DNA of 64,000 bases from Palleronia caenipelagi (lineage in GTDB: Bacteria > Pseudomonadota > Alphaproteobacteria > Rhodobacterales > Rhodobacteraceae): NCBI RefSeq assembly GCF_007004065.1, contig NZ_VFSV01000008.1:1-64000 (forward strand), read 5' to 3'. Numbering within the stretch: the first letter of the stretch is position 1; each line of letters begins with the position of its first letter. A program made the position numbers and the translations under genes. This document shows positions 390 through 64,000 of the stretch, piece by piece. The notes under the pieces were generated by a model, which did no database searches, had not been told where the DNA came from, and was given only the letters and a program-made list of their open reading frames with translations.

Positions 390-410
390 CTCTGGAGGGA
401 TTGCCTTGGA

Positions 411-860: not shown

Positions 861-978
861 GATGTCGGTCCTCTATATCTGCGTTTCTGTTGAGGTACAT
901 ATGTCGCTGCACCGCAGCATTTTCAACTGTGACGTGAGGGAAAATTCCAAGAATTTCCTTAGCCATTGGCCATAAACG

Positions 979-1010: not shown

Positions 1011-1026
1011 GTTGCATGTGCAGCAA

Positions 1027-4172: not shown

Positions 4173-4174
4173 GA

Positions 4175-5791: not shown

Positions 5792-5794
5792 CTG

Positions 5795-6391: not shown

Positions 6392-6418
6392 TCCGGGTTT
6401 CTCTCTTGCGTTTGGGCA

Positions 6419-6442
6419 CAAAAAAACGGGCGCGCGGCCCGT
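6419..6442 (-). terminator. Terminator-like hairpin in the rimP leader (attenuator candidate)
   Basis: On the minus strand, ACGGGC-CGCGC-GCCCGT (6442-6426) is a 6-bp GC-rich stem followed by TTTTTTT. It ends only about 28 bp before the rimP ATG. It may simply terminate the upstream pip transcript. However, no room is left for a complete promoter between it and rimP, so the operon promoter probably lies upstream of it and the hairpin would act inside the leader. A second small hairpin (CCGGG-GTCCACA-CCCGG) precedes it. Confidence 0.55.
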
Positions 6443-6531
6443 TGTCGTGGTCGGTGGGTACCGGGTGTGGACCCCGGCAACGCCGCTGTTGACGTCCACA
6501 TAGTCGCAGCCGCCTGAAAATGCAAGCTGTG

Positions 6532-7503: not shown

Positions 7504-7571
7504 ACCACACTTATATAACGGGAAACCGCTCTGTTGCGAGAGCGAAGCGGCGATATTCGGGAGAGAATGCC

Positions 7572-9127: not shown

Positions 9128-9378
9128 GCGAGCAATGGGTCAAGCTTGCCCTGACGGTCCAGCGCGGACAGATCGTCATAGCCACCGACATGCGCCCCGT
9201 TGATGAAGATTTGCGGCACCGTGTGGCGGCCATTGGCCCGCTGCATCATCTTCTGCCGGAGCGCGGGCTTTGTCGTCACGTCGATTTCGGTAAAACCCAC
9301 GTTCTTGCTTTTCAACAATCGCTTGGCGGCGTGGCAATATCCGCAGAGCGCAGAGGTGTAGATTTCGATCGTGGCCAT
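9124..9378 (-). CDS. grxC: Glutaredoxin 3
   Basis: The 84-residue thioredoxin-fold protein reduces disulfides and mixed glutathione disulfides. The redox motif is Cys12-Gly-Tyr-Cys15, in place of the commoner CPYC. The cis-Pro loop TVPQIFI and the GSH-binding GGYDDL follow. The start at 9378 is preceded by GGGAGCG; an upstream ATG at 9399 lacks homology. It is translationally coupled to the downstream amidase gene (4-bp overlap) and follows comF by about 30 bp on the same strand. Confidence 0.93.
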   Translation of the reverse strand: MATIEIYTSALCGYCHAAKRLLKSKNVGFTEIDVTTKPALRQKMMQRANGRHTVPQIFINGAHVGGYDDLSALDRQGKLDPLLA

Positions 9379-9409
9379 GGCACCGCTCCCAAAAGTCATT
9401 TGCGACTAT

Positions 9410-10129
9410 CTAGGCCTCCTGAAGCGCGCGCGCCAGTACCACGATTCTCACATCTGCCGCACCGGCAGCAAAGGCTGCCCGTGTCGTTGCAGTCAGCGTC
9501 GCCCCGGTCACCAAAACATCATCCACGATCACGACATTACGCCCCAGAAGCGCCGCCGCGATGTTTGGATGCGGTCGGATCGCGCCGTCCAATGCTGCGA
9601 ACCGTGCTGTCCGATCGGCGCCCGACGGGGCCGGAGCGCGCACCCGGACCAAGGCACGCGCAGCAAATCGGGCGTTGCGCCGTTTCGCCAGTGCCCGGGC
9701 CAAAAGCGCCGCCTGATTGTAACGGCGATGAACCAGCCGTCGCCACGTCAGCGGAACGGGAACCACCACGGCATCATCAGGCCAGATTTGGCGGGAGGCC
9801 GCACTCATCCAATCGGCCGCAGGTGCGACCAGATCCAGCCGATCTCCATGCTTCAATCGCAACACGAAATCACGCATGGTTCCCGAATAGGCAACCGCTG
9901 CGCGCCCGGCGGACCAAAGCCGCGGTGTCGCGAGGCACTCGTCACATAGCGGTCGCCTGCAGGATTCGCCTGGCAAAGGGGCGCCACAGGTTTCACAGCA
10001 CAAGCCCTGAATGAAATGGGCCGAAGACCAGCAACACCCGCATAGCCCCACCCGCCCCGCAAGAGGGGTATCGCATATCGCGCAAACCGGCGGATAAACG
10101 ACATCAAGAAGCGATTGAACGTATCGCAT
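9410..10129 (-). CDS. ComF-family phosphoribosyltransferase-like protein
   Basis: From ATG 10129 the protein has 239 residues. An N-terminal zinc-finger-like region carries CXXC pairs (CAIC, CGCC, CETCGAPLPGE, CDEC). A C-terminal type-I PRTase fold follows, with the PRPP-loop stretch NVVIVDDVLVTGATL. ComF homologues take part in DNA uptake in competent bacteria and often have other roles in non-competent species; no substrate can be assigned. An upstream ATG at 10162 would overlap the divergent methyltransferase-like gene, so 10129 is preferred. It precedes grxC on the same strand. Confidence 0.88.
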   Translation of the reverse strand: MRYVQSLLDVVYPPVCAICDTPLAGRVGLCGCCWSSAHFIQGLCCETCGAPLPGESCRRPLCDECLATPRLWSAGRAAVAYSGTMRDFVLRLKHGDRLDLVAPAADWMSAASRQIWPDDAVVVPVPLTWRRLVHRRYNQAALLARALAKRRNARFAARALVRVRAPAPSGADRTARFAALDGAIRPHPNIAAALLGRNVVIVDDVLVTGATLTATTRAAFAAGAADVRIVVLARALQEA

Positions 10130-10149
10130 GGCTTGCCTAGATCCATCCA

Positions 10150-10995
10150 ATGTCGACCACACCTGTTCTCCTGACCGACCGCGAGGCTCTGACCCGCGCC
10201 CGTCGCCGCATCAAACCCGAAGCGCTGTTTCTCCATAAGCAGGCTGCGGAACGGCTCCATGAAACACTGGAGGTTGTTAAAAGGACGTTTCGAAACCCTG
10301 CGATTGTGACCGGACATCCGGATTTCTGGTCCCGCGAATTTCCCGACGCACGGCTCGTCGCAGATGCGGAAGTGCTGGACCTGCGCGAGGCCGCCCATGA
10401 CCTCGTGATCCACGCCATGGCGCTGCACTGGGCGAATGACCCGGTGGGACAGATGATCCAGTGCCGCAGAGCCCTCCGCCCTGATGGGCTGTTTCTCGCG
10501 ATCTTCCCGGGCGGCGGGAGTTTGCAGGAACTGCGTGAGGCCCTTGCCACGGCTGAGACGCAGATGCGCGGAGGGCTGGCACCCCGGGTGCTCCCAATGA
10601 TGGAATTGCGCAGTGCGGGCAGTCTTTTACAGCGAGCAGGCCTCGCCCTGCCGGTTGCCGACACGGATCGATACGACGTCAGCTACGCCGATATCACCGC
10701 CCTCATGCAAGAGCTGCGGACGATGGGCGAAGCTAACGCCCAAAGCGCTCGCGATCGTCGGTTCCTGCCACGCGGCGTCCTGACGGAAGCGGCCCGGCTC
10801 TACCACGATCATCACGCCACGGAGGACGGCACCCGGATTCGGGCGACCTTTGAATTGGTGCATCTGCTGGGGTGGGCGCCCGATGACAGTCAGCCAGTGC
10901 CACTCCGCCCCGGCTCCGCCACAGCCCGGCTCGCCGATGCGCTGGGCACGGCCGAGACCCGGTTGCGCGACGATTCGCCCGGTCAGAGCGATTGA
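10150..10995 (+). CDS. BioC/NDUFAF5-like methyltransferase-fold protein
   Basis: The 281 residues match the later half of class-I methyltransferases of the NDUFAF5/BioC type: AHDLVIHAMALHWANDPVGQ, then CRRALRPDGLFLAIFPGG, and a C-terminal helical region with GEANA and FELVHLLGWAP. The usual glycine-rich SAM motif I is not recognisable; the equivalent region reads NPAIVTGHPDFW. The protein may therefore bind SAM weakly or be a pseudoenzyme. From memory, relatives beside comF and hemH in other Rhodobacteraceae show the same loss. It is divergent from comF by 20 bp, so both promoters overlap. Confidence 0.75.
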   Translation: MSTTPVLLTDREALTRARRRIKPEALFLHKQAAERLHETLEVVKRTFRNPAIVTGHPDFWSREFPDARLVADAEVLDLREAAHDLVIHAMALHWANDPVGQMIQCRRALRPDGLFLAIFPGGGSLQELREALATAETQMRGGLAPRVLPMMELRSAGSLLQRAGLALPVADTDRYDVSYADITALMQELRTMGEANAQSARDRRFLPRGVLTEAARLYHDHHATEDGTRIRATFELVHLLGWAPDDSQPVPLRPGSATARLADALGTAETRLRDDSPGQSD

Positions 10996-11047
10996 CCTCG
11001 CGCCCGACTTCCTTATGTGACTGCACACCGCAACGAGGATGAGTGAT

Positions 11048-12136
11048 ATGCTGGACAGCCATTCGACCGACGATCCGATCGAGACCGCCGCGCGTGAGGC
11101 CAAATGCCCCGTCCACGCTCCAGCGGATCACCCGAAGATTCCGCGCGCCAAGGTCGGTGTGCTGGTAGCCAATCTTGGTACGCCGGATAACTACGACTAC
11201 TGGTCCATGCGCCGCTATCTCAGTGAGTTCCTGTCGGATAAGCGGGTCATCGATTACTCCGCTCTGATCTGGCAGCCGCTCCTGCAGGGCATCATCCTCA
11301 GCAAGCGGCCATTCTCCTCCGGCGCGGCCTATAAGTCGATCTGGAACGAAGAGCAGGGCGAAAGCCCGCTGATGACGATCACCAAGAGCCAGACGGCGAA
11401 GCTGCGCGCCCGGCTGACCGAGCGCTACGGCGAAGACGTGATGGTGTCCTTCTGTATGCGCTACGGCAACCCCTCTACGCTCAAGGTCGTTCGCGAGATG
11501 ATCGCCGCTGGCTGCCAGAAGATCGTGTTTTTCCCGCTCTATCCGCAATATGCGGGGGCGACGACAGCGACCGCGAATGACCAGTTCTTCCGCGCGCTGA
11601 TGAAGGAAAAATGGCAGCCGCCCGTGCGCACCGTGCCGGCCTATTTCGACCGCGCGAGCTATATCGACGCACTGGCCCAGTCGGTGGAGCGGAGCTATGG
11701 CGCACTCGAGACAAAGCCGGACATCCTCGTCTGCTCCTATCACGGAGTGCCGCAGCGTTACCTGAAAGAGGGCGACCCCTATCATTGTCAGTGCCAGAAA
11801 ACGACGCGCCTGCTCAAAGAGCGGCTAGGCTGGGACGACACCCAGATCATCACAACCTTCCAGAGCCGATTCGGCCCCGAGGAATGGCTCCAACCCTATA
11901 CGGTTGAGGAGGTAGCACGACTGGCGGAACGCGGGATGAAGAACATCGCAATCTGCGCTCCGGCCTTCTCAGCCGACTGCATCGAGACGCTCGAAGAGAT
12001 CAACGAAGAGATTCGGGAGAGCTTTGAGGAAGCGGGGGGTGAGCGTTTTACCTACATCCCCTGCCTCAACGATGACGAAGCGCATATGGCTGCCCTCGAG
12101 GAGGCGATTGTCGAAAATCTGTCGGGCTGGCTCTGA
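11048..12136 (+). CDS. hemH: Ferrochelatase
   Basis: It inserts Fe(II) into protoporphyrin IX, the last step of haem synthesis. The protein has 362 residues from the second ATG at 11048. GAGG (11035-11038) is 9 nt from this ATG but abuts the in-frame ATG at 11039, so 11048 is the better start. Family features include VGVLVANLGTPD near the N-terminus, the active-site His in CSYHGVPQRY, and CPAFSADC-like ICAPAFSADCIETLEEI. The N-terminal extension carrying CPVH before the core is seen in some alphaproteobacterial enzymes. A strong hairpin terminator follows the stop. Confidence 0.96.
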   Translation: MLDSHSTDDPIETAAREAKCPVHAPADHPKIPRAKVGVLVANLGTPDNYDYWSMRRYLSEFLSDKRVIDYSALIWQPLLQGIILSKRPFSSGAAYKSIWNEEQGESPLMTITKSQTAKLRARLTERYGEDVMVSFCMRYGNPSTLKVVREMIAAGCQKIVFFPLYPQYAGATTATANDQFFRALMKEKWQPPVRTVPAYFDRASYIDALAQSVERSYGALETKPDILVCSYHGVPQRYLKEGDPYHCQCQKTTRLLKERLGWDDTQIITTFQSRFGPEEWLQPYTVEEVARLAERGMKNIAICAPAFSADCIETLEEINEEIRESFEEAGGERFTYIPCLNDDEAHMAALEEAIVENLSGWL

Positions 12137-12168
12137 CCAGCCCTTTGGGCTTCCGCAACGAAGGCATG

Positions 12169-12205
12169 AAAAAAGGGCGACCAGAACATCTGGTCGCCCT
12201 TCTTT
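12169..12205 (+). terminator. Bidirectional terminator between hemH and the small membrane protein gene
   Basis: AAGGGCGACCAG (12173-12184) and CTGGTCGCCCTT (12190-12201) form a perfect 12-bp stem with an AACAT loop. The minus side is followed by six T (complement of A12169-12174), the plus side by CTTT. It serves both converging genes, with the better T-tract for the minus gene. Confidence 0.85.
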
Positions 12206-12227
12206 GTATGAGGTCCGAAAGATCGGA

Positions 12228-12416
12228 TTAGTCGGCGGCCACGGCCACGGCGGCGATCACGGCCAGCACGAGGAGCGGGATGGTGGCGGAGGAGGAAGAG
12301 GTGTTCTCTTCGACAACCACGACGGGCTCGGCAACGGGGGCGGGCTCAACGTAACCACCAGCGAAGGCACCGGTGGCGGCAACGGTCAGCGCGGCGGCGA
12401 GGGCGATCTTTTTCAT
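12228..12416 (-). CDS. Small secreted/membrane protein, function unknown
   Basis: The 62-residue protein starts MKKIALAAALTVAATGAFA, a clear Sec signal peptide cleaved after AFA. A short Pro/Val/Glu segment (EPAPVAEPVVVVEENTSSSS) and one C-terminal hydrophobic helix (about 45-61) ending in Asp follow. GGAG lies 8 nt before the ATG. The mature part would be a tiny single-span inner-membrane protein with a periplasmic acidic face. I recall similar short proteins in Rhodobacteraceae but know no function. A perfect 10-bp hairpin lies in its 5-prime leader, and it shares a terminator with hemH. Confidence 0.75.
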   Translation of the reverse strand: MKKIALAAALTVAATGAFAGGYVEPAPVAEPVVVVEENTSSSSATIPLLVLAVIAAVAVAAD

Positions 12417-12437
12417 TCTGTCATCTCCAGTTGATAG

Positions 12438-12462
12438 TGCGGTCTGCACTTCGCAGACCGCA
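12438..12462 (-). promoter_or_regulatory. Perfect hairpin in the leader of the small membrane protein gene
   Basis: TGCGGTCTGC (12438-12447) and GCAGACCGCA (12453-12462) are exact inverted repeats around a 5-nt loop. On the mRNA of the minus gene the stem ends about 21 nt before the ATG and just upstream of the GGAG ribosome site. No T-tract follows, so it is not an ordinary terminator. It could be a protein-binding site, an RNA stabiliser or a translational switch. Confidence 0.5.
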
Positions 12463-12565
12463 ACAGCAATCAGGTAGCGTGTACCTTAGCTTGCGATATA
12501 AGCCTAACCGGGAGGGCAGGCAAATCCTGCTTGATCAGACAGCACCATAACGCCACGCAACGATG

Positions 12566-13162
12566 TCAAATCAGCAACACCTGCGTGCCCGGGCCGGTCA
12601 GGCTGTAGAGCTCTGCAATATGGTGATTATACAGCCCGATGCAGCCATTTGAAGATCGCCGTCCGATCTTGCGCGTGTCATGGGTGCCGTGGATCCGATA
12701 GTATTGCCAGCTCAGATAGAGCGCGTGAGTTCCGAGCGGATTGTCCGGCCCCGGCGGCACGAATTCCGGCCACTCAGGATTCCGCTTGCGCATATCTGGT
12801 GTCGGCGCCCAGGAGGGTCCCTCAACCTTACGGATAATCTCGGTCCGGCCCTTCCGGGTCAGATCGTCGGTTTGCGGAACAGACGTCGGGTAGAGCTTAT
12901 AAACCGATTCGTCCTCGCTCCAGAAGTGCAGGGCGCGGGACGTCACATCGCAGAGAATTGCTCCGTTCGTCAGAGTGTCAAAGAAGGGCTGCCAGCTATA
13001 GGTCCGGAAACTGGACGCATTGCGGCGGGTACTGCTGTCAATCGTCCGGCGGAACTCGGTGGAGCCCGCCTGCTGGGCAATGGCGGGTGCTGCCAGCATG
13101 GTGCTCGCCGCTCCTGCGATGAAAGCGCGTCGCTTCAGCGCGCCGGGGGTGGTCTGGGTCAT
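12566..13162 (-). CDS. L,D-transpeptidase (YkuD domain), Tat-exported
   Basis: The 198-residue protein has a twin-arginine-type leader (LKRRAFIAG followed by a hydrophobic stretch and APAIAQ). The catalytic YkuD motif is complete: His158 (YYRIHGTHD) and Cys174 in RRSSNGCIGLYN. Such enzymes cross-link peptidoglycan stems (3-3 bonds) or attach proteins to the wall in the periplasm. The insertion SWAPTPDMRKRNPEWP is typical of the ErfK/YbiS-like branch found in alphaproteobacteria. It reads towards the small membrane protein gene and is divergent from the CAP lipoprotein gene. Confidence 0.9.
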   Translation of the reverse strand: MTQTTPGALKRRAFIAGAASTMLAAPAIAQQAGSTEFRRTIDSSTRRNASSFRTYSWQPFFDTLTNGAILCDVTSRALHFWSEDESVYKLYPTSVPQTDDLTRKGRTEIIRKVEGPSWAPTPDMRKRNPEWPEFVPPGPDNPLGTHALYLSWQYYRIHGTHDTRKIGRRSSNGCIGLYNHHIAELYSLTGPGTQVLLI

Positions 13163-13324
13163 TGTTACTGCCTCGAAAAGGTGGCCGTCTGCTTTTTTAT
13201 GTGGCGAAGAATACGCCTGTCGGGGCCACCGCGCAATTCACACCAGCGTCAGTTCGCTCAGCACCGATTGATCCGGTACCGCGATGCTTGTATGCGCCAG
13301 AGAGCAGCAAGATTGGAGACACAG

Positions 13325-13837
13325 ATGATCCGCGCGACGCTGACAATGACGGCCCTTTCGCTGGCACTGGTGGCCTGCGCCGCTCCGCCTGCCCCGCCCT
13401 TGGTCGATGGCAAGCCGCTGCCCCAGAAATACGACATGGCGTCTGAGGGGCGGGACGTGATCCAGCTCCGCTTTCTGGACGGAATGAACGCCTTGCGGCA
13501 GGCGGCCGGTGTCGGGCCCGTGGCCCTCGATGTGCAGCTGAACGCCGCTGCGGCAACCCACTCGCGAGACATGAGCGTCCAGAACCGCCCCTGGCATTTC
13601 GGGTCTGACGGGTCCTCGCCCATCGACCGGGCACGGCGCACCGGCTATTACGGTCGGGTCCTGGGCGAGAATATCTCGGAGACCTATGAGACAGAGCTGG
13701 AGACCCTCGCCGCTTGGATGGAAGACCCTAACACCAGAGCTGTCATCACGGATCCGAACGCGCAGGATCTGGGCTTCGCGTGGTATCAGCAGCCCACCGG
13801 CAAAATCTGGTGGACTATGGTCACCGGACGGCGTTAA
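13325..13837 (+). CDS. CAP/SCP-domain lipoprotein
   Basis: The chosen ATG at 13325 gives 170 residues with a lipoprotein signal: a hydrophobic stretch then LVAC, with Cys18 as the lipidated residue. GGAGA lies 6 nt upstream. The mature domain has the CAP (SCP/PR1) core: HSRDMSVQNRPWHFG with the His/Glu-type cavity, GRVLGENISE and a C-terminal WWTMVTGR. CAP proteins are extracytoplasmic and of varied function (lipid, peptide or wall binding). It lies between two L,D-transpeptidase-fold genes, which suggests an envelope role. Longer in-frame starts upstream overlap the divergent gene and are not plausible. Confidence 0.85.
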   Translation: MIRATLTMTALSLALVACAAPPAPPLVDGKPLPQKYDMASEGRDVIQLRFLDGMNALRQAAGVGPVALDVQLNAAAATHSRDMSVQNRPWHFGSDGSSPIDRARRTGYYGRVLGENISETYETELETLAAWMEDPNTRAVITDPNAQDLGFAWYQQPTGKIWWTMVTGRR

Positions 13838-13851
13838 GCGCCAGATCTCAT

Positions 13852-13876
13852 AAAAAAGGCAGCCTGAGCTGCCTTT
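13852..13876 (+). terminator. Bidirectional terminator between CAP lipoprotein and L,D-transpeptidase genes
   Basis: AAAGGCAGC (13855-13863) and GCTGCCTTT (13868-13876) pair perfectly over 9 bp with a CTGA loop. A-runs on one side and T on the other provide U-tracts for both converging transcripts. Confidence 0.85.
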
Positions 13877-13897
13877 CCTCACTCTGTCAAGCTTCCG

Positions 13898-14401
13898 TTA
13901 CGGGTAGATCGTGATCGGCGTCCCGTCCCGGACCATAGCGTAGATCTGCTCGATCTCGCGGTCAGTCACGGCGATACACCCTGCCGTCCAGTCACTTCCA
14001 CGACCGCGTTCGTAGAACTTGCCGCGACCGTGGATGAAAATATCGCCACCCGGACGCCGGCCAGTGGCCCGCGCGACCTGAACGTCGTTCACATCCGGGT
14101 AGGAGATGCCGAGCGACAGGTGATACTTGCTGTTCGGATTGCGCCGGTTAATGTAGTAATGCCCTTCGGGGGTCCGACCGTCCCCTTCGTAGATCTTGTG
14201 CCCGCGTGGCTGGAAGCCGAGCCCAATATCGTACTCTTCGAGCACTTTGCGGCCATGGTATAGGCGCAGCTTTCGCTCACCTTTCAAAACGACCAGCCGA
14301 GTGACCTCAGGGCCGTTATACGACTTGAACTTGCTGTTGCCACCGCAGCTGGCCACGCCGATCAGGACCAACCCCAGCAGGAGGATACGGAGAATTGCCA
14401 T
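13898..14401 (-). CDS. L,D-transpeptidase-family lipoprotein (ErfK/YbiS/YkuD)
   Basis: From ATG 14401 the protein has 167 residues. The signal peptide MAILRILLLGLVLIGVASC ends in a lipobox with Cys19. The YkuD catalytic motif is His124 (FIHGRGKFY) and Cys142 in DWTAGCIAVTD. The fold suits L,D-transpeptidase or L,D-carboxypeptidase activity on peptidoglycan from a membrane-anchored position. The absence of a LysM or other binding domain means specificity is unknown. It converges on the CAP lipoprotein gene and shares its terminator. Confidence 0.9.
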   Translation of the reverse strand: MAILRILLLGLVLIGVASCGGNSKFKSYNGPEVTRLVVLKGERKLRLYHGRKVLEEYDIGLGFQPRGHKIYEGDGRTPEGHYYINRRNPNSKYHLSLGISYPDVNDVQVARATGRRPGGDIFIHGRGKFYERGRGSDWTAGCIAVTDREIEQIYAMVRDGTPITIYP

Positions 14402-14526
14402 TGGACTGCTTTCTGCCTCGAAAACCTGTTTTTTTATACACGTAGGATAGCTACCAAATTCTCCACGGGAAAGCACCTATACGAGTGGAGCGGAGTTTCG
14501 CTCGCCCATCAGTGCAGTAACCCGTT

Positions 14527-15726
14527 TCATTGTCTGGAAAATGCTGCCGCTATTTCCACATGGGGCGACCAGCGAAACTGGTCGATCACCCGGACCCAGT
14601 CGAGCCGATAGCCACCGCGAATCAGGGACCCGGCGTCGCGGGCGAAGGTCACAGGATTGCAGGAGACAAAGGCAATCCGCTGGAGCGTGGACTCCGCCAG
14701 CTCCCGGCACTGAGCTTCGGCACCCGCACGGGGCGGATCTATAACGGCGGCAGCGTAGTCCGACAAATGGGCCGCCTCCACCGGATCCCGGAAGAGGTCT
14801 CGCCGCTCGGTGGTGACGCGACCGGAGCCAGCGCGCGCGGCAGCCCGGAGCATCTCAGCGTTGCCTTCGACCGCATGGACCGGCGCGCGGCGGCTCAGCG
14901 GCACGGCGAAGGTGCCGCAGCCCGCGAACAGGTCGATCACCGGCCCACCGTCGCCCAGAGCCTGCGCAACGCAAGCGATCAGGGCTGATTCGCCATGTGA
15001 TGTAGCCTGAAGAAACGCGCCGGGCGGTGGGACAATGGTCATCCCACCGATCACCTGACGCGGGGACCGCGCCTCGATCACTGGCTCACCGTCCAGTGTC
15101 AGCCGTGCGAGATCGGCATGACCCGCGATTTCGGCCAGACGGGTCAGGAGGGCAGCGTCGCTCGCCTTGGCCCCTGCCATCGCCACGTCGAGCCCGGCTG
15201 GTCCCGAGGTCACGAGCAGGGACAGCTCGCCCTTGCGTGATGCCGCAGCCTCCGTCAGCTCGGTCAAAACCGGCAGGGCCGCGAGGATCTCTGGCGCGAG
15301 CACCTGACAGCCGGTGATCTCGGTGATCGTGCCCGAGCGACGCCCATGAAACCCCACCAATGCCCCGTTCTTCGTCCGCCGCCCGGACAGGGACGCGCGG
15401 CGGCGACTGGCGGGGGGCGACGTGGCGATCCCTTTGATCGGCGCAGGCAGGTCGCGGGCGCGAAGAGCCTCACGCACCACACCGATCTTCCACTCCGCCA
15501 CGAAGCTGTCGGAGGCATGGAGCAGCGCGCAGCCACCGCAGGTGTCGTAATGGGGGCAACTAGGCGTGACTCGTTCTGACGAGGACGTGACGATCTGCGG
15601 GTCACTCATGCGGTCGCCTTCGACCTTGCCCTCGAAAAGTTCGCCGGGCAGGGCGCGCGGGACATAGACCGGACCCGGCGCAATGCCGTCGCCCTGATGG
15701 CCCAGCCGATCGATGGTCACCCGCAT
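14527..15726 (-). CDS. rlmD: 23S rRNA (uracil-C5)-methyltransferase of the RlmD/TrmA family
   Basis: The 399-residue enzyme has an N-terminal TRAM-like domain, then iron-sulfur cysteines C57, C63 and C66 (SCPHYDTCGGC) and a fourth Cys in ITGCQ near residue 139. The C-terminal SAM fold shows DLFAGCGTF and the catalytic nucleophile Cys356 in VSCNPVTFARD. The Fe-S cluster separates RlmD/RlmC types from TrmA. RlmD is the likely identity (U1939 in E. coli numbering), but the exact uridine cannot be fixed from sequence alone. The stop and the next upstream gene are one base apart, so it is co-transcribed with the ABC exporter. Confidence 0.85.
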   Translation of the reverse strand: MRVTIDRLGHQGDGIAPGPVYVPRALPGELFEGKVEGDRMSDPQIVTSSSERVTPSCPHYDTCGGCALLHASDSFVAEWKIGVVREALRARDLPAPIKGIATSPPASRRRASLSGRRTKNGALVGFHGRRSGTITEITGCQVLAPEILAALPVLTELTEAAASRKGELSLLVTSGPAGLDVAMAGAKASDAALLTRLAEIAGHADLARLTLDGEPVIEARSPRQVIGGMTIVPPPGAFLQATSHGESALIACVAQALGDGGPVIDLFAGCGTFAVPLSRRAPVHAVEGNAEMLRAAARAGSGRVTTERRDLFRDPVEAAHLSDYAAAVIDPPRAGAEAQCRELAESTLQRIAFVSCNPVTFARDAGSLIRGGYRLDWVRVIDQFRWSPHVEIAAAFSRQ

Positions 15727-15727
15727 G

Positions 15728-17563
15728 TCAGGCCGCCTCTGTGTCGAAATTCAGGAACCCACCCGATTGCCGGTCCCAGTAGCGCGCGTAGGTACCACCC
15801 TGTGCCAGCAGCTCCGCATGGGTGCCTTCCTCGACGATCCGGCCCTCTTCCAGCACGATGATCCGGTCCATCCGCGCAATGGTCGACAGGCGATGGGCAA
15901 TGGCGACCACGGTTTTGCCGTCCATCAGCCCCTCCAAAGAGTCCTGAATGGCCGCTTCCACCTCGGAATCGAGCGCCGAGGTCGCTTCGTCCAGTACCAG
16001 AATCGGGGCGTCTTTCAGGATTGTCCGCGCCAGCGCGATCCGCTGTCTCTGCCCGCCCGAGAGCTTTACCCCCCGCTCGCCCAGATGCGCATCATAGCCG
16101 GTGCGGCCCTTCGAATCCTGTAGGCCAACGATGAACGCGTGCGCCTCCGCCCGTTTCGCGGCAGCGATGATCTCGTCCTCGCTGGCATCAGGACGCCCGT
16201 AACAGATGTTGTCCCGGGCCGAGCGGTTGAACATGGCGGTATCCTGCGTGACCTTGCCGATGCGGCTCCGGAGGCTCTCTTGCGTGACCTCCCGCACATC
16301 GTAACCCGCGACGCGGATGGCGCCCTCCTCGGTATCATAGAGCCGCAGGAGCATGGCTACGAGGGTGGATTTCCCCGCACCCGACGCGCCAACGAGGCCA
16401 ATCTTTTCGCCCTCGGCAATTCGCAGAGAGATCCCGTCGAGTCCGCCCAGGCCGCGCCCATAGGTGAAACGCACGTTCTCGAATTCCACCGCGGCGCCGG
16501 GCGGCAAAGCGATTGCGTCCGGTGCGTTGGTCAGGGTGTGCGGCGGGGTGAGGGTGTTCACGCCATCCTCCACCTCGCCGATGTTGGAATACATGGCCAT
16601 CATCGCCATAGAGACCCATCCGGTCATCTGCGCGATACGAATCGCAACTGAACCCGCCGCCGCGATATCCCCGGTGCTGGCCGCGCCATCAGACCAGAGC
16701 CAGACCGTGCCGCCGACCAGCAGGACCGGCAGCACACCGGCCATCGTCATCAAGGCCAGCCGGAACCCTGCCGTGATCACTCCGAAATCGAGCGCGCGCT
16801 CGCGAAAGGACCCGATGGCGTCCAGCGCAACGCGGTCTTCGTGATCGTCATGGGCGAAGAGCTTGACCGTCTTGATGTTGGTGATCGTGTCCACCACCTG
16901 CCCCGACACCATCGCCCGCGCGGCGGCACGGGCCTTCGAGCGGGCGCGGATGCGCGGCAGGAACCAGCGGATGCCGGCAAAATAGCCCACGAGCCAGACC
17001 AGCAAGACCAGCGCCATCCAGCCGCTGATGGTGCTCAGAAGAACCGCGGACCCCACCAGCGTGGCCAGCGCAAAGCACACCACATTGATCGTCTCGGAGG
17101 TCACATCAGTGGCGGCGCGGGCGGTCTGCATCTGCTTTTGCGCGATGCGGCCGGCGAAATCGTCGTCGAAGAAGCCGACCGCCTGTCCCAGCGTCCAGCG
17201 ATGCAGCCGCATCAGCACCATGGGATTCACATTTGGCGCGATCATCACTGCGTTGGAGGTCGCGGCGAGGCCAAACAGGATGGGGCGGACCACGATGAAG
17301 AACAGCACCGCAGAGATCAGCAGACCCGCATTGGCGGCGAAAAAGCCGCTCATACCCGTCTCCACCGCCGCATCCACGACCCGACCAAGAAGCACGGCGG
17401 AGATCACCTCCGCACTGCCCGCGAGGGCGGAGAAAAACGCGGCGATGATCAGCCAGGGCCAGGCGCCCGACAGCGCCCAGAGCATAAAGCGCCCCGGACG
17501 GCGGGGCGGCGGGCCCTTGGCCGGGCGGAAAGCGTCGATAAATGAGCCAATACGGCGGATCAT
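15728..17563 (-). CDS. ABC exporter, fused membrane and ATPase domains
   Basis: The 611-residue half-transporter has an N-terminal six-helix membrane domain (about 25-320) and a C-terminal nucleotide-binding domain (about 345-600). Walker A is GASGAGKST, the signature is LSGGQRQRIALAR, Walker B is ILVLDEATSALD, and the switch His lies in AIAHRLSTI. This is the MsbA/multidrug type and works as a homodimer in the inner membrane. The basic N-terminus (RPAKGPPPRRPGRF) resembles alphaproteobacterial exporters. The substrate cannot be told from sequence; lipid, peptide or drug are all possible. It directly precedes rlmD. Confidence 0.9.
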   Translation of the reverse strand: MIRRIGSFIDAFRPAKGPPPRRPGRFMLWALSGAWPWLIIAAFFSALAGSAEVISAVLLGRVVDAAVETGMSGFFAANAGLLISAVLFFIVVRPILFGLAATSNAVMIAPNVNPMVLMRLHRWTLGQAVGFFDDDFAGRIAQKQMQTARAATDVTSETINVVCFALATLVGSAVLLSTISGWMALVLLVWLVGYFAGIRWFLPRIRARSKARAAARAMVSGQVVDTITNIKTVKLFAHDDHEDRVALDAIGSFRERALDFGVITAGFRLALMTMAGVLPVLLVGGTVWLWSDGAASTGDIAAAGSVAIRIAQMTGWVSMAMMAMYSNIGEVEDGVNTLTPPHTLTNAPDAIALPPGAAVEFENVRFTYGRGLGGLDGISLRIAEGEKIGLVGASGAGKSTLVAMLLRLYDTEEGAIRVAGYDVREVTQESLRSRIGKVTQDTAMFNRSARDNICYGRPDASEDEIIAAAKRAEAHAFIVGLQDSKGRTGYDAHLGERGVKLSGGQRQRIALARTILKDAPILVLDEATSALDSEVEAAIQDSLEGLMDGKTVVAIAHRLSTIARMDRIIVLEEGRIVEEGTHAELLAQGGTYARYWDRQSGGFLNFDTEAA

Positions 17564-17633
17564 GGAAAGGCGGTCCGGTTGTTACCTGTCCCGGAATGCC
17601 CTGTCCGACCGCAGGCGTAAACCCTCTGGCTGC

Positions 17634-18014
17634 TCAGCCGTTATGAGCCTTGCGCCGGATCGAGCGCTTAAGCAGATCCAGCTCGTCGCGCAACATGGCG
17701 ACCTCGGTGACCAGATCCTGATCCACCGCCCGCCCTGCCGCAATGTGCAGGCTGCACAGCGCAACGCCCGTGGCCCGCTCGACCAGATAGACGCTCTGCA
17801 CACCATCAGACAGCTTTATGTCAGACATTGAGAACGTGGCCATCTGCCCATCCTCGGTCGCGGTCATGTCAGGTTGGCCAAGTGTTTCACCATGGTGAAT
17901 GACGTCGACCTCGGGGAGATCGCCATCGCCTTCAAGACGAATGGTCCAAACCCCATCCTTGAGCGTTTCGGAGGACGCGGTCCAACTCAGTGTATCAGAT
18001 TGTTTGCTCATCAA
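17634..18014 (-). CDS. Conserved hypothetical protein
   Basis: The 126-residue acidic cytoplasmic protein (125 if started at 18011) has beta-rich repeats: TWTIRLEGDGD-like, VDVIHHGETLG and VQSVYLVERATGVALCSLHIAAG. A C-terminal helix rich in Leu, Lys and Arg follows. There is no signal peptide or membrane span and I do not recognise a family. It follows the DUF6478-like gene by 9 bp on the same strand, and both look beta-sandwich-like, so they may act together. Confidence 0.7.
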   Translation of the reverse strand: MMSKQSDTLSWTASSETLKDGVWTIRLEGDGDLPEVDVIHHGETLGQPDMTATEDGQMATFSMSDIKLSDGVQSVYLVERATGVALCSLHIAAGRAVDQDLVTEVAMLRDELDLLKRSIRRKAHNG

Positions 18015-18023
18015 ATGTCCTCG

Positions 18024-18794
18024 TCAAACTTCAGCTCGCAAGCGGCGGCTGACAATCATGTCACGAAGGGCAAGCCAGCTCATGCGGGGGCGCTCAAAAA
18101 TCACGTCGACCCAAACCCGCTCGACCCGCTCCTCGTGGATATCGGAGTAAGCAAGGTCGAACTCGACGGTCGGGCTGGTTGAGGCGATGTCAACAGACCG
18201 GGTGATCTGCTCCGTATTAGGTCCGTGCTGCACGTTCAGCCGCGCGTAGCAGGTCGTCAGGCTTTCAGTCTCCCAGTTCAGGTCAATCTGTACGATATGC
18301 GAGGTGATCAGACCCACCGCGATTTCGTCATCGATATTGAACGCGAGGCTGAGAAAACTGCCGTCGAAATCCAGCGTGTCGACTTCGAGCCCATAGGGCG
18401 CAGCGCCCGTGCGGCCCTGCCCGGCGCGCTGCTTGATCATCACTTCAGGCCGTCCGGCATCGTGAAAGAGGTTGATTTCGTTTCCGAAAGACGCGCCGCT
18501 CTGGGGCTCTGAGACAAAGGCCGGGACGATCTTGTGGCGAAACGTGCGCGGTCGACCGATCCAGTCACCATCGAGCGACGTTTGCATCAGGTCTGACGAT
18601 CCGGTGACGGGGCTGGCCAGACGGTGATCCGTCATTTCGATCACCCGATCCAGTCGTTCACGCAGGTCTTCCGCCTGCTTTCGCAGCGCCGCCAGCGAAA
18701 AGCGGTCGAGATCCTCGGTTTCATCACCGATTTTCGTCCACCGCTTGATCGCACGGCGATGGACAATCTCGTCAAGGCCACCAATGAGTTTCAT
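18024..18794 (-). CDS. Uncharacterised protein, DUF6478-like
   Basis: From ATG 18794 the protein has 256 residues. An N-terminal helical part (HRRAIKRWTKIGDETEDLDRF followed by Arg/Leu-rich helices) leads to a beta-rich C-terminal region with DWIGRPRTFRH and LFHDAGRPEVMIKQR. From memory it resembles the Rhodobacteraceae family listed as DUF6478, whose function is unknown; a profile search would settle it. There is no signal peptide. Its stop is 9 bp before the next hypothetical gene. Upstream in-frame sequence to 18941 overlaps ilvD and is unlikely to be coding. Confidence 0.7.
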   Translation of the reverse strand: MKLIGGLDEIVHRRAIKRWTKIGDETEDLDRFSLAALRKQAEDLRERLDRVIEMTDHRLASPVTGSSDLMQTSLDGDWIGRPRTFRHKIVPAFVSEPQSGASFGNEINLFHDAGRPEVMIKQRAGQGRTGAAPYGLEVDTLDFDGSFLSLAFNIDDEIAVGLITSHIVQIDLNWETESLTTCYARLNVQHGPNTEQITRSVDIASTSPTVEFDLAYSDIHEERVERVWVDVIFERPRMSWLALRDMIVSRRLRAEV

Positions 18795-57928: not shown

Positions 57929-60531
57929 TGCAGGCGGCCCGGCCTCTCTCGATGGCGGAGTACCACCGCCTCGATGTCAGCCTCGAAGAGGCCGGGCCCT
58001 TCGACACGATGACTGCGGCAGAACTGGACGGGTTTCTGACCGCGATCTTCCTGCCGTCCTTGGGGGAACTGTCCCTGCGCGAGCGGCACCTCACCCGCAT
58101 TTTCGGCCACGTTGACGCCGACCAACGGACACCTGATCCCGAACTGCGCCAAAGGGTCATCGCTCGGGCACAGCAGATACGTCACATGATCGGCGAGGGC
58201 GACGCCACCATCTTTATGCCCGACCGGCTGGAGCCACGGCGGGTAATTGCGGAATGGGTCAGCGGATTTGTCACCGGCATCCGTGCAGAGATCCGGGACT
58301 GGACGCCGCTATTATTGTCTGCAAACGCCAAGCTGCTTTTCCCAATTCTGCGCCATGCGCACGGGTTCCATCGCTTTGCCACAGTTACCCAGGCCCATCA
58401 GCAAATCGACGATGCGATCACCCAGATCACCCTGTTTCAGCTCATGCCCGAAGCTGGTGGACCAGTGTCTCACGCGGCCACTATTTTTCAACTTAATACG
58501 CTGATTTCCCAAGCTGAGGCAGCCCACGCACCACCCGTGCCCATGGTGCTGCCAACGGCTCAGACCGGGCTGGTGGCCCGCGCCCGGGGGCATGTCGCGC
58601 GCCACGCGACCCTCTATTCTTCGTCTCTGGCTGTCGGCCTTCTGGCAGGGGCTCTGGTGCTGTGGACCGGAGATCAGGATCCGGCGACTCCCACGGAGAT
58701 CGCTGCTGTTCCTGCTCCCACCGAACAACAACTCGCCGCCCTGGCCACGCGTGATGCCCAGATCAGCGCGCTCGAAGCCGCCAACAGCGACAGCCAGCGC
58801 GCCAGAGATCAACTCGCAGCACGGATTGAGGAGCTGGAGGCGCAACTGCGCGACGCAGGATCGACCACAGCCGAAACCTCCGCGCTACAAAGCGCCCTGT
58901 CCACGCGGGACGCCCAACTGGCCGCCTTGAAGATCGACCAACAGGACCTCCTCGAACAGGTTCGATCACGCGAAGCCCGGATCGCCGAGAGCGAGCGTAC
59001 AACCCGGTATCTCACGAGTGAAAACGCGCGCCTGTCCGATGAGAACAACGAACTGAACGGAGTCGTTTCCGCCCTGCGCAAAGAACGGGACGCTGCTCTC
59101 AGGTCAGTGCAGCAAAGCGAAGACGCTTTGGCGGCTTTGCAGAGCGAGACGGGGGTCCAACTCGGATCACTGGCCGGCCAGACCGACGCTCTGTCGACTC
59201 AGATCGCAGAGCTGACCGAGGCGCGTCAGGTCGCCCAAGAGAAGGCCAAAGCGGCGGAGGCCGAGCTCGCCGCGCTGAAGATCGATCAGAAGGATCTGCT
59301 CGAGCAAATCCGGTCCAGAGAGACCCGGATCGCTGAGAGCGCGCGCACAGCCACAGATCTTGCCGATGAGAAAACCCGCCTGTCCGATGAAATCAGCACG
59401 CTGAATGAAGTTGTCTCCACCCTTCGCGACGAGCGAGATGATGCCATACGGTCTGTGGACCAAAGCCAAGACGCTTTGGCGGCTTTGCAGAGCGAGACAG
59501 AGGTTCAAATCGCATCGCTGACCGGGCAAGCCGACGCGCTCTCGGAGCAGATCACAGAACTGACCGAGGCGCGTCAGGTGGCGGAAGATCGGGCCGAAGC
59601 AGCCGAGGCAGAACTCGCTGCACTGACAATCGACCGGACAGATCTCATCGGGCAGGTCCGGTCAAGCGAGGCCCGCATCGACGAGAGCGTCCGCACGGCG
59701 ACGGATCTTGCGAACGAGAACACCCGCCTCGTCGGTGAAATCAGCGCACTAAACAGTGTCGTCGCCACCCTGCGCGACGAGCGAGACTCCGCCATCCAGT
59801 CTGTGAAGCAGGGCCAGAACGCCTTGGCGGCTTTACAGAGCGAGACAGAGACCCAACTCGGATCGCTGGCCGGGCAGAGCACCGCACTCTCAGAGCAGAT
59901 CAGGGAACTGACCGAGGCGCGTCAGGTCGCCGAAGAGAAGGCCAAATCGGCGACGGCAGAGCTTGCCAAGCTCCAAACCCAGCATGCCGCTGAAATCGCC
60001 GAAGCGCGCTCTCGGGAACAGCAGCTCTCCGAGGGGCTGGCGGAGCGCGACGCGGTTTTGGCTGAGCTCGTTGCGGAGCGGAATGCGTCGCGTGCGGAGC
60101 TGCTTGATCTCCGTCAGGATTTTTCAGGGCGGGCCCAAATGTTCGAACAAGAAATCGCCAGCCTGACCGCCCGGAAAGACGAGTTGACCGAGTTGTTGGC
60201 GCAAGCCAATGCCGAAAACGACGCGCTTCTGGTGAAAGCGAATATTCCGGCGGCACGACCTGCCCTCGCCGCACCGCCGGTTGTATCAGTCACGACGGCG
60301 CCATCTGCCGAAACCGTCGAGACCTCCCGGCGGCGGGATCTGGCGACGCAGATCCAATCAGAACTGGCTGAGCGATACAGCCTCGGCACAGCGTCAGAGC
60401 GCGACGCATGGGTCGACGCCGTCGCGGCTGGCGCATCGATACAGCAGGCTTTTGAGGACGCGTTCGGAGATCCCCACCGGTTGATCGCTTTGCGCCTCTG
60501 CCGGGATTTCAGCGAGCTCTGCGGAGCCTAA
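57928..60531 (+). CDS. UPF0149 (YecA)-like protein with transmembrane helix and repeated coiled coil
   Basis: The 867-residue protein starts with a UPF0149-type helical domain (about 1-185; MTAAELDGFLTAIFLP, VIAEWVSGFVTGIRAEIRDW and LLFPILRH). A single hydrophobic helix lies at about 230-248 (LYSSSLAVGLLAGALVLW). A long coiled coil (about 265-800) includes three 116-residue tandem repeats at 331-678. A small helical C-terminal domain (about 800-867; RDAWVDAVAAGASIQQAFEDAFG) contains two Cys. With the N-domain in the cytoplasm, the coil would extend into the periplasm, where the TAXI protein resides. I know no characterised homologue with this architecture. Confidence 0.8.
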   Translation: MQAARPLSMAEYHRLDVSLEEAGPFDTMTAAELDGFLTAIFLPSLGELSLRERHLTRIFGHVDADQRTPDPELRQRVIARAQQIRHMIGEGDATIFMPDRLEPRRVIAEWVSGFVTGIRAEIRDWTPLLLSANAKLLFPILRHAHGFHRFATVTQAHQQIDDAITQITLFQLMPEAGGPVSHAATIFQLNTLISQAEAAHAPPVPMVLPTAQTGLVARARGHVARHATLYSSSLAVGLLAGALVLWTGDQDPATPTEIAAVPAPTEQQLAALATRDAQISALEAANSDSQRARDQLAARIEELEAQLRDAGSTTAETSALQSALSTRDAQLAALKIDQQDLLEQVRSREARIAESERTTRYLTSENARLSDENNELNGVVSALRKERDAALRSVQQSEDALAALQSETGVQLGSLAGQTDALSTQIAELTEARQVAQEKAKAAEAELAALKIDQKDLLEQIRSRETRIAESARTATDLADEKTRLSDEISTLNEVVSTLRDERDDAIRSVDQSQDALAALQSETEVQIASLTGQADALSEQITELTEARQVAEDRAEAAEAELAALTIDRTDLIGQVRSSEARIDESVRTATDLANENTRLVGEISALNSVVATLRDERDSAIQSVKQGQNALAALQSETETQLGSLAGQSTALSEQIRELTEARQVAEEKAKSATAELAKLQTQHAAEIAEARSREQQLSEGLAERDAVLAELVAERNASRAELLDLRQDFSGRAQMFEQEIASLTARKDELTELLAQANAENDALLVKANIPAARPALAAPPVVSVTTAPSAETVETSRRRDLATQIQSELAERYSLGTASERDAWVDAVAAGASIQQAFEDAFGDPHRLIALRLCRDFSELCGA
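58918..59961 (+). repeat. Three 348-bp tandem repeats inside the coiled-coil gene
   Basis: Copies begin at 58918, 59266 and 59614. Each encodes 116 residues opening LAALKID or LAALTID, with shared landmarks DALAALQSET and ELTEARQVA. A fourth copy begins at 59962 but soon diverges. Period and phase are exact, so the units arose by in-frame duplication. Confidence 0.9.
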
Positions 60532-61097
60532 GTTCCGGCCGCTTCGAAGTCAAAGTCCGGTTGCCGGGCTGAACCGAGGATCAGCGCTTCGGTATCGAGC
60601 CGCTTGTGAATAGCCCGATCCAGTTCCGCAACATGGGCTTCCGGGATAACCACCGCTCCGTGACGGTCGGCATGAACCAGGTTGCCATCGTCAACGGTCA
60701 GACCGAACACCGTCACCGACGCGCCAATATCGAGCACATGGACAAAGCCGTGGCTCGGCTCCACAGACCCCGCGATCACCGGGAATCCATCCGCCATGTC
60801 ATCCAGATCCCGCATCACACCGTTGGTCAGCGCGCCAGAGAGGCCGAAGCATTGGTGGATCGTGGTATTGATCTCGCCCCAGAACGCGCCCACAGCCTCT
60901 GCGCAGTCCAGATGCCCAAGCACCGCGAGGGCCGGACGCGGGCCCTCTGCCATATGGCGGTAGCATTCCATCCGACGCGCCCGGATGACATCGGCGGGCT
61001 CAGTCGGAGGCGCGACAACAGCGATCTTTGCGGTCAGGGAGTTGCAGACGGAGGGCGTACCCACCCGGCGAAGCAAATCCAGCAGCGCGTCATTCAT
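60528..61097 (-). CDS. RraA-like / HMG-CHA aldolase family protein
   Basis: The 189-residue RraA-fold protein has GALTNGVMRDLDDMADGFPVI with the family Arg-Asp pair, and DDGNLVHADRHGAVVIPEAH. The family contains 4-hydroxy-4-methyl-2-oxoglutarate/4-carboxy-4-hydroxy-2-oxoadipate aldolases, oxaloacetate decarboxylases and RNase E regulators. Retention of the Arg/Asp motif and association with catabolic genes favour aldolase or decarboxylase action. It overlaps the upstream alpha/beta-hydrolase gene by 8 bp and ends 4 bp inside the convergent coiled-coil gene. Confidence 0.85.
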   Translation of the reverse strand: MNDALLDLLRRVGTPSVCNSLTAKIAVVAPPTEPADVIRARRMECYRHMAEGPRPALAVLGHLDCAEAVGAFWGEINTTIHQCFGLSGALTNGVMRDLDDMADGFPVIAGSVEPSHGFVHVLDIGASVTVFGLTVDDGNLVHADRHGAVVIPEAHVAELDRAIHKRLDTEALILGSARQPDFDFEAAGT

Positions 61098-61797
61098 CGT
61101 CTGTCTCCTTCAGCCAGTCCCTGAGTGCGGCGATGGTCTCTTTGGAGCGTTCCAGTGTTGGCAGATGCCCGGCGCCTTCGATGACCACCAACCGCGGACG
61201 AGACAGGAGGTCGCGCATCAATTCATGCCGGAAGACCGGGCAAAGCGCATCGTCGCTCCCGCAGAGCACCAGCGCCGGACCGCCATAGGCGCGGAGCGCG
61301 TCGCATTGGTCCGGCCGGTCCATCAGCGCCTGCGACTGACGCAGGAACACGTCCGGCCCAAGCGACTCTGCCATCTCCATGCAGAGGGCCAGCACATCCT
61401 CGCGGCCGGCACCGGGGGCGAGGTAGTTCGGCTTCATCTCATCGCGCATCACAGCAACCAGCTCCCCTTGGCGGACCCGCTCCATCTGCGGCCGGCGCAG
61501 GGCGCGGATCTTGTCGGCCTCAGCCTTAGGGTTGGTACCAAGGAGCGCCAGACCGGCAACCCGCTCCGGCGCCTGCCGGACTACCTCCATGGCCACGATC
61601 CCGCCCATCGACAAGCCAGCCAGCGCGAAGCGGGGCGGGGCGTGGAGCAATATCTCAGCGGCCAGCGCCTCAACCGTGTCTGCCCCGGTGATCGGAGCGA
61701 CCTGCACCGCGCGGTCCCGGGAGAACTCCGCGATCTGCGGCCCAAAGAGCCGCGCATCGCACATCATGCCGGGCAAGAGGACCAGGGGCAGGCTCAT
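61090..61797 (-). CDS. Alpha/beta-fold hydrolase
   Basis: The 235-residue hydrolase has the nucleophile elbow GLSMGG with Ser63, the acid in CGSDDALCP and the terminal His in [10 protein letters not shown]. The oxyanion region is [12 protein letters not shown]. It resembles small esterases and lactonases, and no substrate can be named. Its start overlaps the stop of the HisD-MetE chimera (ATGA) and its end overlaps the rraA-like gene, so the run is tightly coupled. Confidence 0.85.
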
Positions 61798-63380
61798 CCG
61801 ACCAGCGCCGCCCCATCGGCCATCGCGCGAAGTTTCGCATAGGCGATATCTGGGTCCACCGCACCAAATCCCGCGAAGGTCCCAAAGCCGCAATCGCTGC
61901 CCGCCATCACTCGCTCCGCCCCAACGATATCGACAAAGCGCTCCAGCCGCTGGGCTATCAGCTCCGGATGCTCGACGAAATTTGTGGTGGTGTCCACGAC
62001 GCCGGGCACGAGGATCTTATCGTCGGGGATATCGCCATTCCGATCGCGGAAGACGGCCCATTCGTGGCCGTGGCGGGGGTTCGAGGTCTCGAACAGAACA
62101 TAGCGGGCCCTGGCCGACATCAGGGTGTCGAACATCTTTGCCATGGAGATATCGCAGCAATGGGGGCCTTCGTAATTGCCCCAGCAAATATGGATGCGCA
62201 CCCGCTCTTGCGGAACGTCGCTCAGGGCGTGGTTCAGCACCTCCACATGACTGTCGGCGATCGTCACGAACTCATCGTCGCTGAGATCGTTGAACAGCAT
62301 GTGCCGGGAAAGGGCCAGATCGGGGCAGTCCAGCTGCAGATCCAGCCCGGCGGCGACGATGGTCTCGTACTCCGCCTTCATCGCGTCCGCGAGGGCGGCC
62401 AGATAGGCGTCGCGGGTGGCATAGTGGTCGTTCTGCAAAAACAGCGAGATCACCCCCGGAGACGCGGCATTCATAAAGCCCCGCTCCGCCCCGTGCACAG
62501 CCATCGCGGCCCGCAGATTGGCGATGTCTTTCTCAAGCTCGCCCTGACCCTTCGACCGCACCTCGCCCACGCACATCTTCCACGAGTTCGTCACCAAGAC
62601 CGCCGGGGAGTTGTAGCCGTGTTCGGCCTGCCCCAGCAGGTCGGTGGCGCAGATCTCCGCATCGACAGTGTTGTCCGCGATCACCATGGTCTCGGTCGGA
62701 CCGGCAAAGAGGTCGATCCCGACACGACCGAACAGCTGCCGTTTCGCCTCTGCAACAAAAGCGTTCCCCGGACCAACCAGCAGATGCACGGGTGCGATGC
62801 TCTCGGTCCCGAGCGCCATAGCGCCCACCGCCTGAATGCCGCCCAGCACATAGATCTCATCCGCGCCGCCCAGATGCATCGCCGCGATGACCGCCGGGTT
62901 GGGCTCGCCCCGAAAGGGCGGGGTGCAGGCGATGATGCGGGGCACGCCTGCGACCTTGGCCGTGGCTACGGACATATGGGCGGAGGCAACCATGGGAAAC
63001 TTGCCACCCGGCACGTAGCAACCCACCGATTGCACGGGAATGTTCTTATGCCCAAGGATCACACCCGGCAGCGTTTCGACCTCGATATCGGTCATGGAGG
63101 CGCGCTGGGCGCGGGCGAAATTCACCACCTGCTCTTGTGCGAATTTCATATCTTCCATGTCGCGCGGCGGGACCTTGGCTATGATCGATTTAATTTCGTC
63201 GTCGCTCAGCCGATAGCTGTCGCGGTCGTAGCTGTCGAATTTCATCGCCAGTTCGCGCACCGCCACATCGCCACGTGCCTCGATATCCGCGAGCGTGCTG
63301 GCCACGGCCTCGCGGACATTCGCATCATCCTCGGTCCTCTCCACCTCGGGCTTACTACGGTTGAGACACTCCTTTGCCAT
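61794..63380 (-). CDS. Chimeric protein: truncated histidinol dehydrogenase joined to MetE-like C-terminal domain
   Basis: From ATG 63380 the open frame has 528 residues. Residues 1 to about 266 match the N-terminal part of the HisD family, in the branch near sulfopropanediol dehydrogenase: [46 protein letters not shown] and zinc ligands Gln251/His254 in [19 protein letters not shown]. HisD then stops; its catalytic Glu-His pair and last two zinc ligands are missing. From about 268 the chain is the C-terminal half of a cobalamin-independent methionine synthase-like protein, with its zinc set His397-x-Cys399, Glu431 and Cys497. Each partner is normally 370-430 residues. The junction is near 62570-62585. 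It is a natural deletion fusion or an assembly misjoin. Confidence 0.8.
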
Positions 63381-63855
63381 CGGAGTCTTCCTTTTCCTGT
63401 CCGTCCGCTGCGAGCAGCGACGGGTCAAACGCAACCAGTTCCACGGTGTTTCCCTCCGGATCGAGGCAGAACACGCCCCGCCAGCCGATCCAGTCAAAGA
63501 CCTCGACCCGGTAATCGATGCCGTGATGCGAGAACCACCGCATGGCGTTCTCCTGCGCCTCATGGTCCACGGTCAAAGCGAGGTGATGCAGGGAGGACCC
63601 GGCGCCGGTCCGGGGTGCGTCACTGGTGTGGGGATGGATCTCGGCCCGCCCGGCGTCGCGGGCGAACAGCGCCAAAACCGCCGTATGCCCTCCATAGCCC
63701 GGCCCGATCCGGAAAAACACGATGCCGTCGTCGTCGGAGGATCCGCTGAGCACTTCCAGCCCGAGCACATCGCGGTAGAACGCCACCTGACGCCCAACGT
63801 CTCCGCATCGAATGGCGATCTCGCCCAGCGCCTTGATGTCGAAACCCCGCTCCAT
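63355..63855 (-). CDS. VOC (glyoxalase/dioxygenase-fold) protein
   Basis: Starting at ATG 63855 (GGGAG upstream) the protein has 166 residues with one vicinal-oxygen-chelate domain: [42 protein letters not shown] and [16 protein letters not shown], showing metal-type His and Glu. A short charged tail follows. The function is unknown. The frame is open upstream without a stop into an ABC permease C-terminus, so the protein may be made as the tail of a fusion. Its end overlaps the chimera start by 26 bp. Confidence 0.82.
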
Positions 63856-64000
63856 GACCCGTTCTCCCTTCACTGCGCCTGCAGTGAGACCGTAAACGAT
63901 CTGGCGCTGGAGGAACATCACCCGAATGAACAGCGGCGCGGGTGCGGAGACCACGGCGGCGACGGCGAACATGACGTTGCCTTCGGTCTGGGTCGTCCCG
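63856..64000 (-). CDS. ABC transporter permease, C-terminal end (cut by window edge), in frame with VOC
   Basis: The minus-strand frame from the window edge reads GTTQTEGNVMFAVAAVVSAP, then a hydrophobic helix, then QRQIVYGLTAGAVKG, the standard C-terminus of carbohydrate ABC permeases of the MalG type, where a stop normally follows KG. Here the next codons are GAA CGG GTC ATG and reading continues into the VOC protein. The rest of the permease lies outside the window. Confidence 0.7.

Follow-up and report, generated by a model that had tools for sequence, protein, structure and literature searches.

What does it mean when one uninterrupted reading frame carries the front of one enzyme and the back of another? 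The question is raised by a frame near the end of a 64,000-nucleotide stretch of Palleronia caenipelagi DNA (hereafter the window), which begins as a histidinol dehydrogenase (HisD)-family protein and ends as a protein resembling cobalamin-independent methionine synthase (MetE). A preliminary description of the locus had left three readings side by side: a recent deletion between two genes, an assembly that misjoins them or a newly arisen two-domain protein. Comparison with relatives leads us to regard the fusion as very probably what a private deletion left behind, one likely to have spanned about 6 kb of an operon that the lineage appears to be losing.

The frame itself is as first described, a single minus-strand open reading frame running from an ATG at 63380 to a stop at 61794–61796 and encoding 528 amino acids, with a stop codon that overlaps the start of the following hydrolase gene by 4 bases (Table 1). 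Alignment with parental proteins divides it into 268 N-terminal residues from a HisD-family protein and 260 C-terminal residues from a MetE-like protein, where about 266 and 260 had been proposed. The Pfam model Histidinol_dh matches residues 15–275 at 291.7 bits (curated cut-off 27) and is itself covered only over positions 4–265 of 411, while Meth_synt_2 (PF01717) matches residues 322–502 at 28.4 bits (cut-off 21) over profile positions 144–306 of 324. The fused frame also passes the NCBIfam hisD cut-off (278.5 versus 243.8 bits). Measured against the intact proteins of one relative (locus L056; 442 and 374 amino acids), 174 HisD codons and 114 MetE codons are gone, so that the earlier estimates of about 160 and 110 were near the mark and slightly too low.

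Table 1 Features of the fused locus in the window (coordinates as window positions)
Feature	Position	Strand	Remark
RraA-family gene	60528..61097	-	32-codon in-frame deletion and excess changes at conserved positions
Alpha/beta hydrolase, next in operon	61105..61797	-	frame intact
MetE-like half, residues 269–528 plus stop	61794..62576	-	first 114 residues of parent (L056) gone
Putative deletion junction AAG/ATG, in frame	62576..62577	-	0–1 base of homology, judged from relatives
HisD-like half, residues 1–268	62577..63380	-	without C-terminal part (174 residues in L056)
Glyoxalase/VOC-family gene	63355..63855	-	directly upstream of fused frame, overlaps its start
ABC permease 2, 3′ end, uptake system of operon	63865..64000	-	continues past window to contig base 64506

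All six residues singled out in the preliminary description stand at the positions given there. Gln251 and His254 of the HisD half are invariant in 76 relatives compared, and His397, Cys399, Glu431 and Cys497 of the MetE half, presumably zinc binders, are invariant in 88 (relatives below 70% identity or 93% coverage were dropped). Neither half is complete. The HisD half keeps Gln251 and His254 and lacks the catalytic Glu-His pair and the full four-ligand set of the family (PF00815): the equivalents of Glu319-His320, Asp353 and His413 of the intact L056 protein, to which we ascribe the catalytic and ligand roles known for Escherichia coli HisD and borne out in part by the mutant data of PMC11131964, fall in the part lost from the fusion, in line with the absence of that pair and of the last two ligands noted before. 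The MetE half likewise retains its ligand set and lacks its N-terminal part, as had been claimed; it thus falls short of a complete barrel, and the missing N-terminal part is strongly conserved in the 10 relatives aligned.

We placed the join by comparison with 12 HisD-like and 11 MetE-like parents from relatives. The HisD part runs through Lys268 (AAG; AAG or AAA in 10 of the 12 relatives, CGG in the other 2) and the MetE part begins at Met269 (ATG TGC; ATG in 9 of 11), which puts the join between 62577 and 62576, within the interval 62570–62585 put forward earlier and, as expected there, in frame. After the lysine codon the HisD parents carry C or T, and before the ATG the MetE parents carry C or G, so that homology at the join amounts to 0 or 1 base as judged from relatives; in local DNA alignments, the stretches matched to the one and the other parent share no more than 3–4 bases. 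Trp267 (TGG), just before the join, is absent from the 12 parents, yet this position is variable among them.

To what arrangement did the two parts belong? GTDB genomes held at least 586 related stretches, of which we took the best 80 together with 14 other loci (94 loci). Both parts are present in 74 of these and lie on one strand in 73; the exception, L065, has them on opposite strands, and its HisD homologue is a more distant one (48% identity). The other 20 loci carry one part only within the stretch fetched. Across the 73 same-strand loci the distance between hisD and metE-like gene ranges from 979 to 8113 bases with a median of 5851, and in 71, including the four congeners that have both genes, it is at least 3.9 kb. 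Annotated relatives give, with some variation, the order ABC transporter, hisD, SnoaL-like (‘ester cyclase’), SDR, LacI, SnoaL/NTF2-like, cupin, metE-like, alpha/beta hydrolase and RraA, one annotated listing being without the SDR, and Pfam assignments on L056 agree for the intervening genes and metE.

Eleven relatives, a subset of the 94 loci, were mapped gene by gene. Eight have hisD, SnoaL-like, SDR, LacI, SnoaL-like, cupin and metE-like genes in that order, and L037 has four of the five intervening genes with no match for the first SnoaL-like gene, so that at least four of the five are kept in 9 of 11. Of the remaining two, L074 has a single SDR between hisD and metE-like gene (1783 bases), and L118 has the two genes adjacent as separate open frames, their aligned parts 979 bases apart. 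Downstream of metE the gene order is not uniform: 6 of the 11 have both hydrolase and RraA there, L058 has the hydrolase alone, and L093, L037 and L074 have neither. The window shows the same outer framework, with the transporter upstream, truncated hisD and truncated metE, and hydrolase and RraA downstream, from which the five intervening genes are absent. As a separate observation, the VOC-family gene occupies a place ahead of hisD that is taken by a small SnoaL-like gene in 8 of the 11 mapped relatives. The L118 stretch (2–18769) carries a rearranged operon in which LacI and SnoaL-like genes flank the hisD/metE-like pair and a cut hydrolase lies elsewhere.

The fused architecture itself was found in no other genome among the matches listed. 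Of 60 genomes searched, the present one among them, 51 gave a match of some kind, and in the present genome alone did one match cover residues 1–528; matches to some HisD paralogues extend slightly past the join (the longest over residues 17–323 at 44% identity), as complete HisD proteins would. Within the genus (14 genomes, own included), a match of E 1e-90 or better occurs in 6: beside the present genome, four congeners have the two genes apart, each with its own match but on the same contig and strand, and one (G011) carries the HisD part alone, the other eight giving no match at this threshold, and none of the 13 other congeners has the fusion. In the family, close relatives of one gene or of both occur in 195 of 394 genomes, own included (E 1e-110, with the best three candidates per genome scored). 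Among the matches listed, none of the 393 other family genomes has a fusion; HisD-type matches stop at residues 269–276 and MetE-type matches begin at 265–269. None of the 409 plasmid records with a match covers 80% of the query in one place, there is no second fusion among the 94 loci (the best 80 of at least 586 GTDB stretches plus 14), and four stretches of viral contigs that matched the pattern encode no relative. The refuting case foreseen earlier, an architecture common among relatives, was sought in congeners, family genomes (among the matches listed), plasmids and loci and was not seen; where the loci hold both hisD-like and metE-like parts, these are separate genes.

The stretch that would have linked the two parts was also not found in the rest of the assembly, which is rated 99.71% complete. 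A 6.4-kb DNA query from another genome (G033) spanning the missing stretch returned only six short or paralogous matches in the P. caenipelagi genome, and cupin and second SnoaL-like protein queries returned none there, while the same two queries gave strong matches in 7 of 8 other genomes, G011 being the miss. The SDR and LacI genes were sought in the own genome through the DNA query only. The first SnoaL-like query met only a distant, broken homologue (contig positions 68483–69274, 29% identity), and the MetE-like parent query recovered the truncated copy only. Elsewhere, weaker SnoaL- and cupin-like matches in G033, G014 and G009, and one MetE-like match in G028, also carry stops, which makes the picture less clean.

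The join is not the only lesion in this operon. In comparisons that dropped matches below 45% identity and counted stops only at 90% query coverage or more, ABC permease 1 (contig C171 64752–65771, minus strand; L045 752–1771, past the window) has an in-frame stop at codon 31 that occurs in none of 20 full-length relatives (20 of 40 matches were full-length). The SnoaL/NTF2-like gene at 68303–69268 on the plus strand (L045 4303–5268) lies beyond the window and points away from the transporter genes. Its frame appears to change twice, and its last part contains two more stops; stops were seen in 0 of 7 full-length relatives (7 of 9 matches). RraA has lost 32 codons in frame and is 189 amino acids long, against 211–232 in all 64 matches. 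Two marks expected of a deletion remnant, separate parents at the locus in relatives and lesions nearby, are present here.

Changes at conserved alignment columns add to this picture (relatives below 60% identity, or 45% for RraA, hydrolase and VOC, or below 85% coverage were dropped, which left a single relative for VOC). RraA departs at 7 of 53 conserved columns, a count reached by 1 of 62 relatives; permease 1 at 7 of 117 including the stop (0 of 18 relatives); UgpC at 6 of 166 (1 of 24); and permease 2 at 2 of 93 (1 of 31). The corresponding figures are 3 of 153 for MalE (6 of 12), 1 of 55 for the hydrolase (16 of 62), 2 of 141 for the HisD half (11 of 76) and 0 of 138 for the MetE half (90 of 90). 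When sets of matched relatives were pooled under the same identity limits and 80% coverage, the halves together showed 5 changes in 296 columns versus 14 in 234 for hydrolase, RraA and permease 2 (Fisher p = 0.0096), and 3 in 239 versus 5 in 93 for hydrolase and RraA (p = 0.042); the excess in the pooled neighbours sits mainly in RraA, and only 2 relatives hold all seven genes together. In the two matched sets the rate of the HisD half was reached by 4 of 19 and 3 of 48 relatives, that of the MetE half by 5 of 19 and 15 of 48, and that of RraA by 0 of 19 and 1 of 48. RraA and other genes of the operon are thus decaying, and MalE, the hydrolase and the two halves do not clearly stand out, a pattern that suits a late deletion; because both halves show little decay, the deletion was probably recent, though private changes are too rough a measure to give it an age. 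Taken by itself, the low rate of change in the halves relative to their neighbours fits a late deletion and would also fit a retained function.

We therefore weighed other origins for the join. One is that the strain has two intact genes and that the assembler skipped the DNA between them, a reading to which the draft state of the assembly (192 contigs) and the undecayed look of the halves lend some weight. With 0–1 base of homology at the join, as estimated from relatives, an assembler would however have had no common word to be led astray by; 15-mers near the join are not repeated within the window, and the 400 bases around it occur once in the genome, apart from two partial matches to HisD paralogues. 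The join also lies 62 kb inside a contig of 158,992 bases (C171), and both the window and the 12 kb after it are free of N; a skipped single-copy piece of 6 kb should have formed another contig, which was not found, and the operon is broken at other places too. We accordingly disfavour a misjoin and consider it improbable. Known from the assembled sequence alone, the join is, we infer, also present in the DNA of the cell.

A functional two-domain protein, born by deletion and now under selection, has on its side the open frame, the little-decayed halves next to neighbours with lesions, and the His, Cys, Glu and Cys retained in the MetE half. Against it stand its restriction to one genome among the matches listed, the loss from the HisD half of the equivalents of Glu319-His320, Asp353 and His413, the absence from the MetE half of 114 strongly conserved N-terminal residues, and the damage to an uptake permease and to RraA of the same operon. 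With each half deprived of essential parts in a decaying operon, the proposal of a new protein finds no positive support beyond the low decay, and we think it very unlikely. Much the same small chance attaches to a very young gene, in which LacI-type regulator and gene boundary would have been lost together and the protein would still be made and kept by selection for a residual binding or scaffold role; room for it is left by how little either half has changed next to RraA and permease 1. A different alternative concerns the ancestor. In a sub-case of the deletion reading, whose likelihood overlaps with that of the whole, only about 1 kb would have been removed between genes already adjacent, the other five having been lost or moved earlier. 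The adjacent pair in L118 and the lone SDR in L074 offer precedents, and because L118 has the two genes side by side, the 6 kb may not have been complete in the ancestor; but the wide spacing in 71 of 73 same-strand loci, congeners included, and the four or five intervening genes kept in 9 of 11 mapped relatives make this shorter event improbable.

Because the surrounding operon decays at other points too, we take the apparent hybrid to be, most likely, a leftover rather than a new enzyme. A deletion of about 6 kb within a catabolic operon would have cut off the 3′ end of the HisD-like dehydrogenase gene, taken five whole genes (SnoaL-like, SDR, LacI-type regulator, second SnoaL-like and cupin) and removed the 5′ end of the MetE-like gene. 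The join may have arisen through end joining or illegitimate recombination, with the reading frame retained by chance, a one-in-three event that we count against this reading. The deletion proposed in the preliminary description is thereby supported and its size revised: judged by most mapped relatives, five whole genes would have gone with the gene boundary. The product would be two incomplete enzymes fused, most likely with neither activity, and we infer that it has no useful function. Deletion-fused pseudogenes, in which a truncated 5′ gene is joined in frame to a truncated 3′ gene, are known from bacterial operons; the present case shares their layout and their neighbouring lesions, and the sole difference we found is the little decay in its halves.

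The best PDB match of the HisD half is 8wwe (268 bits), an HpsN; the HpsN enzymes are sulfopropanediol (DHPS) 3-dehydrogenases of the HisD family, and another HpsN structure, 8v35, is the best match of the intact HisD-like parent (404 bits over residues 18–424). The HisD part of the chimera breaks off after residue 268 and so never reaches the catalytic His or the third and fourth metal ligands. Mutant data given in PMC11131964 for the HpsN of a marine relative indicate that His320Ala abolished activity and Asp353Ala lowered it, and removal of the metal, in the same data, abolished activity. The MetE half scores above the cut-off for cobalamin-independent methionine synthase II-like proteins (Meth_synt_2, about 370 amino acids) and has their metal-ligand set, but is without the first 114 residues; 3rpd and 1ypx are remote PDB matches, and the profile of the intact MetE-like parent matches solved structures weakly (E 5e-07). 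Both halves are expected to be inactive. A role of the HisD half as biosynthetic histidinol dehydrogenase was considered and set aside, as the genome has two near-complete family matches on other contigs (C147 and C68) and the nearest PDB matches are DHPS dehydrogenases.

Annotation by best match could call the fused frame a histidinol dehydrogenase or a bifunctional enzyme; it is probably neither. The locus would also catch an operon widespread in the family (one or both genes in those 195 of 394 genomes) in the course of being lost stepwise, and the substrate of the intact operon is a question of greater interest than the fusion. We found no description of this gene cluster in the literature searched, which also gave no support to homarine breakdown as a role of the operon. 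In L056 (2345–11116) and other relatives the widespread operon combines HisD-like, SnoaL-like, cupin, MetE-like and RraA genes with a sugar-type ABC transporter.
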